Assembly: GCA_025060395.1 (NCBI GenBank)
Contig: JANXCC010000002.1
Span: 166,234 to 230,233, forward strand
DNA length: 64,000 bases
From: Candidatus Bipolaricaulota bacterium
GTDB lineage: Bacteria > Bipolaricaulota > Bipolaricaulia > RBG-16-55-9 > DRXL01
Direction of reading: 5' to 3'
Position numbers and translations under genes: made by a program
In this document: positions 5,767-9,830 of the stretch, one piece after another
Layout: the number at the start of each line of letters is the position of its first letter
Position numbering within the stretch: position 1 is the first letter of the stretch
The notes under the pieces: model-generated
What the model was told of the DNA's origin: nothing
Databases searched by the model: none
Seen by the model: only the letters and a program-made list of their open reading frames with translations

Positions 5767-5801
5767 CCTAGCCCCTCCCCAGCGTGGAGAGGGAGAAAGG
5801 A
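5767..5801. repeat. CCCTC/GAGGG palindrome copy, pyk-arcC intergenic
   Basis: CCCTCCCCA-GCG-TGGAGAGGG. Confidence 0.6.
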
Positions 5802-6758
5802 ATGCCGATGAATACGAATAAGACAGTTGTTATCGCATTGGGCGGCAATGCGCTCCTCGATCCAAAGACCAATGGGTCTATTATTGAGCAGATCCGGACT
5901 ATTGAGCAAAGCTGTCAGAGGATCGCGCAAATCATCGCGCGTGGGTATCGTGTTGTGCTGACACACGGCAATGGTCCGCAAGTCGGGAATCTCTTAATTC
6001 AGCAAGAGGAAGCGAAAGAGCTTGTGCCGCCGTTGCCGTTGGACGTTTGTGATGCGATGACCCAAGGGCAATTGGGGTATTTAATTCAGCAGAAGCTCCG
6101 TGAGGCTTTAGGGCAACTCGGCATCATAACGCAGTCCGTAGTGACAGTGGTGACCCAAGTGCAAGTAGACCCAGGTGATCCAGCGTTTGCCGATCCGACA
6201 AAGCCTATCGGGCCGTTCTATTCGGATCGAGAGCGCCTGCTGTTGGAGCAGAAGGGGTATGTGCTCAAGCGTGTTGGGAAGGGAGCGAAGCCGTGGCGGC
6301 GGGTGGTGGCCTCCCCGGAGCCAAAAGATATTGTTGAGCTTGGCGCGATCCGGGCGTTGTTGGCAACGGGTTCGGTTGTGATCGCGTGTGGGGGTGGGGG
6401 GGTACCAGTGGTGCGGGAGGGTGGGCGATTGCACGGGGTCGAAGCCGTGATTGACAAGGATTTAGCGTCGGCGCTGTTGGCGAGCGAGCTTGGGGCTCAG
6501 ATCTTGCTGATTTTGACGAACGTCGAGCGCGTCGCGTTGCACTTTGGCACGCCGCAGCAAGTCTTTCTCGATCGGATGTCGGTGCGCGAAGCGAGAAGAT
6601 ATTTGATAGAAGGGCATTTTCCGGCGGGGAGCATGGGGCCAAAAGTTGAGGCGGCGATTCGGTTTGTTGAAGGGGGTGGGGAGCGTGCGTATATTACTTC
6701 ACTAGAAAAAGCTTTGGAAGCGCTCGAAGGGCGCGCGGGGACGGAGGTTTATGCATAG
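5802..6758 (+). CDS. arcC: carbamate kinase
   Basis: VVIALGGNALL, VLTHGNGPQVGNLLIQ, GSMGPKVEAAIRFVE. Confidence 0.95.
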   Translation: MPMNTNKTVVIALGGNALLDPKTNGSIIEQIRTIEQSCQRIAQIIARGYRVVLTHGNGPQVGNLLIQQEEAKELVPPLPLDVCDAMTQGQLGYLIQQKLREALGQLGIITQSVVTVVTQVQVDPGDPAFADPTKPIGPFYSDRERLLLEQKGYVLKRVGKGAKPWRRVVASPEPKDIVELGAIRALLATGSVVIACGGGGVPVVREGGRLHGVEAVIDKDLASALLASELGAQILLILTNVERVALHFGTPQQVFLDRMSVREARRYLIEGHFPAGSMGPKVEAAIRFVEGGGERAYITSLEKALEALEGRAGTEVYA

Positions 6759-6858: not shown

Positions 6859-7097
6859 CTAACCCCCGACAGTCTGTAAGGCATCGGCAATCTTTGCAGG
6901 CCCCTTCAGAATAGCTTCATTACCTGATTTGGATTAACGCCACCGAGCGCGATAGAGATGTTTTGAGAAACTTCTTCGATTTGTTGAGCATTTTGACGAG
7001 CCCCCTCTCTAATCTGCCCCTCAAGGTCTTCATAAGGCACTCTCTTCAAGCTGCTTAAAAAGAGACCGTCAAGCCTTGACAGTGCCTTCGCTATAGG
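6859..7097 (-). pseudogene. possible decayed, frameshifted gene remnant
   Basis: Minus-strand frame reads ...VPYEDLEGQIREGARQNAQQIEEVSQNISIALGGVNPNQ and, after a one-base frame change near 'CAGGTAATGAAG', continues NEAILKGPAKIADALQTVGG*. No start codon or intact ORF. Confidence 0.3.
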
Positions 7098-7116
7098 CTA
7101 ATATTCAAGAGCTAAG

Positions 7117-7164: not shown

Positions 7165-7246
7165 GCCGAGGTGGCGGAATTGGCAGACGCGCACGTTTGA
7201 GGGGCGTGTGGGGTAACCCATGGGGGTTCGAGTCCCCCCCTCGGCA
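7165..7246 (+). tRNA. tRNA-Leu(GAG)
   Basis: GCCGAGG...CCTCGGC acceptor stem, anticodon stem CACGT/GCGTG with loop TTGAGGG (anticodon GAG), long variable arm, GGTTCGAGTCC T-arm; CCA not encoded. Confidence 0.93.
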
Positions 7247-7296
7247 CGAGAAAAACAAGAACTTATCAGCATAAGCTTCACACTGCCCTTAGTGCT

Positions 7297-8226
7297 TTGA
7301 TCTCCCTCAAAGAGCCTCTAAACCGACTAAGTTGTGTGAGTTTTTCCCAGGCCTTTGACGCCTACATGCTCTATATGGCTGTTGAGGGAAGATCGCGTCG
7401 CACCCAAGAGCTCTACCGCGAAATCTTAACCCGCTTCCTTGGATTTGTAGGAGATAGACTTCTGTCAGAGATAACTTCCCGCGATCTTCGAGCTTATATT
7501 GCTCATCTCCAAGGTCAAGGGTGTAAGCACAGCACGATTAATATCCATTTACGGGCGATTCGAGCCTGGCTGAACTTTCTCTACCGTGAGGGAATGCTGG
7601 CTGAAAAAGTGGCCGAGCGGGTTAAGCTCCTTCGCACGCCGAAGCAGTATCCATTCGTGCTTAGCGATGCTCAGGTTACGGCACTACTCCGAGCGGCGTC
7701 GAGCCACAAAGGGACGTGGGTAGGCTTCCGTAACTATACCATGATACTAACGTTTCTCGACACGGGACTCCGGTTGAAAGAGCTTTTAGCCCTCACTGTA
7801 GATGATCTCGATCTCAACCGACGAGCACTGAAAGTTATTGGCAAGGGGAATCGAGAGCGAGAGGTCTTCTTTGGGCGACGGCTTGGGCGTGTCTTGCGGG
7901 ACTGGCTTGCCCGCAGGACGCTATCACTCCCTGGTGATGCTTTGTTCTGTAGCCGGAAGGGTGATCCTCTCAAGAGACGATATTTGATTGAGATCGTGAC
8001 AAACTTAGCCAAAGAAGCTGGCATTACAGGTGTCCGATGCAGCCCACACACTCTAAGACACACTTTCGCCACTCAGTTTATCCGCAATGGCGGCGATCCC
8101 TTCGCACTCCAACGGCTCTTGGGGCACTCAGATATCTCAACGACAATGATCTACGTCCACATGGCAGGCACAGCGTTGAGAGAAGCCCACGCCAAGGCAA
8201 GTCCGATTGACAGGCTCCTTGAGTAG
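7297..8226 (+). CDS. tyrosine recombinase/site-specific integrase
   Basis: TGLRLKELLAL, HTLRHTFATQFIRNGG, LLGHSDISTTMIYVH catalytic motifs; N-terminal SAM-like core-binding domain; adjacent to a tRNA gene. Confidence 0.95.
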   Translation: MISLKEPLNRLSCVSFSQAFDAYMLYMAVEGRSRRTQELYREILTRFLGFVGDRLLSEITSRDLRAYIAHLQGQGCKHSTINIHLRAIRAWLNFLYREGMLAEKVAERVKLLRTPKQYPFVLSDAQVTALLRAASSHKGTWVGFRNYTMILTFLDTGLRLKELLALTVDDLDLNRRALKVIGKGNREREVFFGRRLGRVLRDWLARRTLSLPGDALFCSRKGDPLKRRYLIEIVTNLAKEAGITGVRCSPHTLRHTFATQFIRNGGDPFALQRLLGHSDISTTMIYVHMAGTALREAHAKASPIDRLLE

Positions 8227-8280
8227 CTATATAATTCAGGATATGAATGAGAGCCAAGCAAAGCTAAATGTGAAACAAGT

Positions 8281-8691
8281 ATGAGCGATAATCAAATCCA
8301 AGAGGTTTTTAATTTTGGTGAGCGAGTTTGGTTGATGAGACGTAAGAGCAAGGTATGGGGATGGCATTATTACATGCAGATTAAAGGTCAACATCAACCC
8401 AAGGTTGAATCCTTGAATAGATGGACTAAAGTAATATCTTGGGTATTAGAGTGGCTTGGTTTTATTGGCCTTTTCATTGCAGCAATAAACCAGCTACTCT
8501 CGGTGCTAGCATGGCCGGGTGCTTTCATTTTTTTGATCAGCCGTGTATTATTAAGAATACGCTTTAGATATTTTGTCAATACCGCGGGAGAGATCAAACC
8601 GTATGGGAAATTGGAGATAAAAAAGATAGCTAAACAAAAAGATTTGAACTCATCTCAAGACTCCGCTCAAGCAGACCATGAGACAAGGTGA
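8281..8691 (+). CDS. small hypothetical membrane protein (sole cargo of the integrative element)
   Basis: 136 aa, hydrophobic segment VISWVLEWLGFIGLFIAAINQLLSVLAWPGAFIFLISRVLL; AT-rich relative to surroundings. Confidence 0.6.
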   Translation: MSDNQIQEVFNFGERVWLMRRKSKVWGWHYYMQIKGQHQPKVESLNRWTKVISWVLEWLGFIGLFIAAINQLLSVLAWPGAFIFLISRVLLRIRFRYFVNTAGEIKPYGKLEIKKIAKQKDLNSSQDSAQADHETR

Positions 8692-8752
8692 TCATTAGGC
8701 GCAAAAATCGCCCGTTTTTTGAGCAAAAATTCCCCAGAGCCATTTTCGTGAA

Positions 8753-8812
8753 CACGTTTGAGGGGCGTGTGGGGTAACCCGTGGGGGTTCGACTCCCCCC
8801 CTCGGCACGAGA
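8753..8812 (+). repeat. attR: duplicated 3' portion of tRNA-Leu
   Basis: cacgtttgaggggcgtgtggggtaacccgtgggggttcgactccccccctcggcacgaga versus 7192-7251, 2 mismatches. Confidence 0.93.
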
Positions 8813-8834
8813 GTTACGAGAACTCAGAGCTTTT

Positions 8835-9830
8835 TTATTGTGTTGGTTCGGCTAACTGCGCCGCTGCCCCGATCACGACCTGAGCTAGACGCTTCGCATA
8901 CGAGAGATCGAGCTTATCTAATGTGTCTGCCGTCGTGTGATAATACGGGTTGAAATCGTCGCTCTCACCATACCCCGTGTCCTCAATCACCAAGACCGCA
9001 GGATACCCGCGACTCCAGAACGACGCGTGATCGCTACGATTCGACGCCCCGGCTTCAGCAACTTCAGGAGCAAGCTTGATCCCATACCTCTGCAGCGTCT
9101 CCACTAATAGATTAGCGAGCTTGAGGGAGTTCTCACGCACCCCAGCGTGGATCTCAAACGCGCCATCGCTGTCGCTGTCGTAGCCGATCATGTCCATATT
9201 GAAGACGCCAAGGATCGGTACGCCCTCGCTCGCAAGCTTGCCAGCATACGCCCGACTGCCTACTAGGCCTTGCTCTTCCCCGGTAAAGAGCACGAAGCGA
9301 ATCGTATGCTTGAACTGATATTGGCTGAGGATTCTCGCGGCTTCTAGGACAGCCGAGCTGCCGCTAGCGTTGTCGTCAGCCCCCGGCGCAATAGTCACCG
9401 AGCCAAACGTCACGCTGTCCAGATGCGCTGTAATCAGCACCGATTGAGACGATTCCCTCCCCGGGAGGATCGCTTCGAGATTGTGAGAGAGCCCCGAACG
9501 ACAGGAGAGCGCAAACGGCACGCGCTCCGTCTTCAAGCCGAGTTTTTCAAAATACCCTTGTGCGTATTCGAGGGCACGATCGATCGCCGCTCCATCGCAT
9601 GACCAGCGCGAGCCCTCAGTGTTACAGAACTCTCCGCCGTCGCGCGACTGGAGAACACAGATATGAGCACGCAGGTTCTCTTCGTTGACTTGCTGAATGA
9701 TCTCGCCGACGACCGTTGTTGTTGAAGCTATAGCCGGCGTCCCGATTGCTGGCTTGAGCACGAAAAGCCCAATGAGGACCGACAGCGAGATAAAAACGAT
9801 ACTCACTCTCTTCATAGTAGACTCCTCCAT
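8835..9830 (-). CDS. M28 family metallopeptidase (secreted aminopeptidase-like)
   Basis: Signal peptide; [60 protein letters not shown]. Confidence 0.93.

Follow-up and report, generated by a model that had tools for sequence, protein, structure and literature searches.

A tRNA-Leu gene whose 3′ part recurs about 1.56 kb downstream raises the question of what the DNA in between is and how it came to lie there. The locus is part of a stretch of 64,000 nucleotides analysed as a whole (hereafter the window, to which all unprefixed coordinates refer) on a contig of 314,790 bp, and so lies away from the assembly edge; the host is a bacterium of the Candidatus Acetothermia type, and its genome is assembled into 86 contigs totalling 1.70 Mb, at 88% completeness. 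An initial annotation from the sequence alone had described an intact tRNA-Leu(GAG), a tyrosine integrase, a 136-aa ORF and a repeat of the tRNA 3′ part, an arrangement confirmed here with ARAGORN, the ORF listing and Pfam. The tRNA gene (7165–7247, plus strand, as are all features unless otherwise stated) appears to be a reconstituted one, with a host 5′ part and an element-borne 3′ part. By repeat comparison, a 72-nt direct repeat was found at 7192–7263 (attL) and 8753–8824 (attR), showing 92% identity over the 72 nt at an offset of 1561 bp, which is the length of the element; attR consists of the 3′ part of the host's tRNA-Leu gene, now displaced, plus a short conserved 3′ flank, and no other comparable repeat was detected within 7 kb. 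The repeat opens in the anticodon stem, at tRNA position 28, just as had been claimed, with a 28-nt exact match (tRNA positions 28–55). The reported identity of 58/60 over the first 60 bases was reproduced exactly, the mismatches being A/G (position 7220) and, in the T-loop, G/C, and the full repeat runs on to 72 nt. The anticodon stem-loop at its start (7192–7208; 5-bp stem arms and a 7-nt loop) is the putative crossover core.

Between the repeats there are two plausible genes, those of the tyrosine integrase (309 aa; 7297–8226) and of a predicted membrane protein of 136 aa (8281–8691; hereafter ORF136), and no further ones. The statement that no replication or packaging gene lies there proved correct for the ORFs of the element. 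Thus, the ORF listing and Pfam revealed no replication protein ORF in 7248–8752, so that the element is not, by content, an integrative plasmid of the Prim-Pol or DnaB type; no relaxase ORF was found within it, which sets it apart on that count from an IME or ICE; and ORFs for packaging, capsid interference or the phage-satellite core (PICI, P4, PICMI, tycheposon) were likewise absent from it. What the locus does possess are the attributes of a tDNA island, namely an integrase inside, an intact tRNA gene with a displaced 3′ fragment in the same orientation, and a relative with an empty attB; at 1561 bp it falls below the 2–200 kb length filter of Islander, a cut-off that is operational and not biological. 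Being flanked by att sites and carrying an integrase with no hallmark of a virus, ICE or transposon, it also answers to the description of a cryptic integrated element.

The integrase is a member of the Phage_integrase family (PF00589, E 5.5e-41) and aligns with the XerD structure 1a0p (E 3e-36), with R159, K183, H251, R254, H277 and Y286 in catalytic register. The enzyme is therefore predicted to be catalytically complete, and the element is probably still integrase-competent. Its start is TTG as listed, a GTG at 7336 being also possible, and the homologues mostly align from about residue 14. Grouping with chromosomal XerC/D had been named as grounds for abandoning the interpretation as a mobile element. 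In a maximum-likelihood tree of 43 integrase rows, the eight chromosomal Xer rows, that of the host included, form one clade (support 100/100), and the element integrase stands outside it in a separate, tRNA-associated family. Its scores with the XerC, XerA and XerD models are below threshold, those for XerC (215.9 vs 335) and XerD (202 vs 329.6) missing the NCBIfam equivalog cut-offs, and it is 31% identical to the host's own Xer, encoded on contig C11. The tree and the equivalog cut-offs together rule out a domesticated chromosomal Xer. Moreover, the window integrase forms a three-member clade (100/97) with integrases of the genomes G006 (from the host's taxonomic family) and G015, and all three adjoin the 3′ side of a tRNA-Leu gene, the anticodon being GAG in the window, TAG in G006 and CAA in G015.

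The empty tRNA-Leu(GAG) site that the initial annotation had proposed to look for in related genomes is present in G005, of the same genus. There (L074, 9654–9736), the tRNA-Leu(GAG) gene is followed, after about 50 bp with nothing between, by the orthologue of the M28-type peptidase gene that flanks the element in the window (8835–9830, minus strand; 82% identity between the two). When the window flanks are joined at the repeat, 223 of 285 aligned positions are identical to G005 through the junction. The downstream repeat is thus not an ancient tRNA pseudogene, the other objection that had been anticipated, since its first bases are those of the anticodon stem, the empty site of G005 lacks it, and it corresponds to the truncated tRNA copies that related integrases generate. 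On the other side, the host flank contains a carbamate kinase gene (5784–6758), found upstream of the tRNA in G003 and G007 as well, and a putative tRNA-Leu promoter in host DNA (TTGACA-17-TAATAT, 7076–7104; 10/12 consensus matches), in a flank resembling the DNA upstream of the same tRNA in G007. A larger island extending beyond 8812 was ruled out, the next genes (M28 and greA) occurring also in G003 and G005.

The same site has a varied occupancy among the relatives. G003 (same genus) shows the order carbamate kinase, tRNA-Leu, a different insert of about 4.5 kb, and M28; the tRNA-Leu/M28 slot has therefore been used more than once in the genus. The insert of G003 (L083, G003:C69, 3010–7517) carries a YhcG/DUF1016 nuclease gene (PDC-S02) and split type IIG/type ISP restriction-modification ORFs, and neither an integrase nor a second tRNA copy was found in it. 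In G007 (sister genus), the carbamate kinase gene and the tRNA stand at a contig end, and an overlapping contig leads to an unrelated gene with no insert. Elsewhere in the host's genus (G000:C86:29833-30932, and L045, L049 and L050), a paralogous M28 peptidase gene adjoins tRNA-Leu(TAG), which suggests an old duplication of the tRNA–M28 pair. The window element itself was found in no second host among 100 genomes of the phylum. At position 7220 the rebuilt tRNA has A, as do G007 and G008 of the sister genus, and attR has G, as do G003, G005, G006 and G016; this single SNP would fit, weakly, an element-borne 3′ part coming from another host. That the repeat copies differ twice over their first 60 nt indicates that the insertion is not very recent.

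Integrases of this family (E ≤ 1e-40) occur in 19 of the 100 phylum genomes. In about 26 loci fetched, the integrase gene starts roughly 50–300 bp from a tRNA gene, and the adjoining tRNAs are those for Leu, Val, Gly, Arg, Ser, Met, Thr, Cys, Pro and Lys. The family repeats of the 3′ type start at tRNA position 19, 28 or 30, those of the 5′ type end at position 39, 40, 65 or 69, and in G017 the entire tRNA is repeated. Because all three kinds overlap in the anticodon arm, the crossover is located there, in agreement with the core that had been postulated in the anticodon stem region. Recombination on the 5′ side, which is unusual among tRNA-targeting elements, was observed at L064 (G006:C149), L066/L133 (G006:C81), L077 (G017:C21), L091–L092 (G032:C72) and L158 (G083:C73), where the tRNA 5′ part or the whole tRNA plus upstream bases is repeated and element DNA lies upstream of the intact tRNA, whose promoter is probably supplied by the element. 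On G032:C72 (L091–L092, L135–L136), a tRNA-Val(GAC) gene is common to two elements, one on each side of the intact tRNA, the 5′-half repeat delimiting 21.4 kb and the 3′-half repeat 36.4 kb. At a 5 kb element, the second copy of tRNA-Gly (L097, G036:C69, 10581–10668) bears a 14-nt duplication in the anticodon arm, which resembles a scar that recombination might leave at the site of crossover. A displaced tRNA-Leu(TAG) 3′ copy at L065 (G006:C4, 17689–17762) is 83/84 identical to the tRNA adjoining the closest relative of the window integrase, on a different contig, and is probably the far end of that relative's element.

Sizes in the family could be derived from paired att repeats where contigs were long enough to hold both ends, and amounted to 5.0 kb (G036), 8.65 kb (G017), 8.9 kb (G083), 10.9 and 32.6 kb (G006), 13.0 kb (G005), and 21.4 and 36.4 kb (G032). 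The window element is the smallest of those mapped, by a factor of three; no other family element below 5 kb was found, many contigs ending soon after the integrase. The larger elements in Acetothermia-type genomes (G005, G006, G017, G032, G036, G083) share with it a related integrase beside a tRNA gene and a crossover in the anticodon arm, but differ in their 5–36 kb length and, in several cases, in the presence of Prim-Pol or DnaB-N/AAA genes. Replication genes near family integrases were of the Prim-Pol/PriCT type in G006 and in G013, whose contig is too short for the distal att site, and of the DnaB-N/AAA type in G017 and G036; serine resolvases also occur, one near a family integrase of G006, and G005 and G008 have related ORFs. 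The smallness of the window element beside its relatives points towards a larger ancestor that was reduced, a course that the family context favours as well. The sequence of the element showed no remains of a replication module that had been lost, and we therefore infer its descent from a larger one from the family only.

ORF136, presumably the cargo, is an orphan in the homology searches. Its product would have a continuous hydrophobic stretch (residues ~49–93) between charged tails. Among 2000 mononucleotide-shuffled versions of the 526-nt gap, two contained an ATG-initiated ORF of its length. The GC content of ORF136 is 39.7% vs 56.7% for the window. No homologue was found in Pfam, PHROGs or PADLOC, nor in phage records, plasmid records or an IMG/VR pattern scan; NCBIfam returned two matches, both below cut-off (best E 0.018), and the 100 phylum genomes a single weak partial match (E 0.004), none of them convincing. 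An AlphaFold model from the single sequence is all helix but uninformative (pLDDT 75, pTM 0.31), and a viral fold search gave no match. Upstream, a perfect sigma-70 consensus (TTGACA-17-TATAAT, 8207–8235; 12/12) overlaps the 3′ end of the integrase gene and reads into ORF136; it is the only perfect match on either strand of the 64 kb window. This suggests that ORF136 is expressed independently from a promoter of its own. Independent expression is a property of prophage morons. Right after the predicted promoter, a possible ORF of 13 aa, read from the sequence (8243–8284), ends with a stop overlapping the ORF136 start (ATGA) and is possibly a leader for translation coupling. An exclusion-type or other host-protective role of ORF136 is a guess.

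Collectively, we consider it fairly probable that the locus is an integrative element of 1561 bp whose own tyrosine integrase, specific for tRNA-Leu, inserted it, and that the element is a reduced one with one cargo gene, now helper-dependent or sessile. The original proposal of a near-minimal element, or of a remnant or satellite in need of a helper, is thereby supported, having withstood three attempts at refutation. The integrase would recombine an attP that includes the 3′ part of the tRNA with tRNA-Leu(GAG) at its anticodon arm; the 7-nt anticodon loop is the presumed place of strand exchange, and the 5-bp stem arms would form the core. On the left, the tRNA would be rebuilt with the 3′ part brought by the element, and on the right, the original 3′ part of the host would be left as attR. 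The ancestors, judging from the family, may have been larger integrative elements that resembled plasmids or viruses and had replication genes, and their reduction would have retained the recombination module (integrase and att sites) and one cargo gene. ORF136 would be driven by its own strong promoter in the manner of a prophage moron, and might plausibly protect the host, for instance by excluding competing elements. The element can probably excise as a circle; lacking any replication, conjugation or packaging gene, it would depend on a helper or on natural DNA uptake for transfer to a new cell, and it may by now be sessile.

Other accounts of the locus fare less well. It is possible, if doubtful, that the element is a genuine minimal mobile cassette or satellite, which excises as a circle and passes between cells by way of a helper phage, a plasmid or transformation, ORF136 being the selected cargo. 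The compact and complete set of integrase, promoter, one ORF and att sites would accord with this, as would, weakly, the sister-genus A allele at the one SNP in the rebuilt tRNA against G in attR, and the thaumarchaeal precedent of 2.6 kb and four genes (PMC6563490); however, the element is present in 1 of the 100 phylum genomes, and neither a packaging or transfer signal in it nor a helper is known. Rather unlikely, in our estimate, is a dead remnant, that is, a larger integrative plasmid or provirus whose interior was deleted, leaving the integrase and ORF136 as immobile leftovers. In its favour, all other mapped family elements measure 5–36 kb and replication genes are common near family integrases, and the att copies do differ at 2/60 positions, one of them in the T-loop of the displaced copy; but the integrase frame and catalytic residues are intact, as are both att ends, no pseudogene fragments are present in the element, and ORF136 has a perfect promoter of its own. 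We would likewise call unlikely, and advance only tentatively, the idea of an active two-gene element at the lower size limit of tyrosine-recombinase elements, made up of the integrase, the att sites and a membrane cargo gene with its own promoter, moving by excision and uptake or piggy-backing and representing a sub-2 kb class missed by surveys. A local, non-mobile tRNA duplication (or pseudogene) beside a domesticated Xer-like recombinase, to which the XerC/D-like size of the integrase and its sub-threshold XerC, XerA and XerD scores might have pointed, is highly improbable and was ruled out by the empty site of G005 and by the truncation of the copy exactly at the anticodon arm, the more so as the integrase is in a clade separate from the host's own Xer and truncated copies of this kind arise at other tRNAs through related integrases.

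The favoured reading, a reduced element inserted by its own integrase, has counterparts among known systems. Cryptic integrated elements of Thaumarchaeota, integrated mostly in tRNA genes, resemble the window element in having an integrase and att sites in the form of direct repeats, while genes for replication or transfer cannot be recognised in them (PMC6563490). The smallest of them, NitUzo-E2, is 2.6 kb long and encodes an integrase, a wHTH protein and two hypothetical proteins (PMC6563490), whereas the window element is bacterial, measures 1.56 kb and contains the integrase and one ORF, with no wHTH. The tDNA islands of Islander likewise have a regenerated tRNA at one end, a displaced fragment at the other and an integrase inside, in the right configuration and orientation; the survey drops candidates < 2 kb (PMC4383910), a minimum that the window element does not reach, and elements like it are therefore missed by the method. 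Tycheposons, for which PMC10872708 quotes lengths of 4–200 kb, also combine a tRNA-associated tyrosine recombinase with cargo, the window element being far smaller. Phage satellites such as PICMI (PMC10803314) offer a functional analogy, as small integrative elements that depend on outside help for transfer; unlike them, the window element has no identified replication, regulation or packaging signal and no known helper. In a literature search of partial coverage, no smaller element of such a kind was found. What is new here is the extreme small size, elements integrated in tDNA being already known as a kind.

The element thus puts a concrete lower limit on the gene content of tRNA-targeted integrative elements, and it makes plain that elements of this sort can be too short for the 2 kb filter applied in surveys of tDNA islands. 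The family to which its integrase belongs is of use in its own right: within one phylum it is spread over many tRNA isotypes, and it recombines on either side of the tRNA, 3′ or 5′. In the tRNA-Leu clade, the isotype follows phylogeny, and the family makes change of integration specificity testable.
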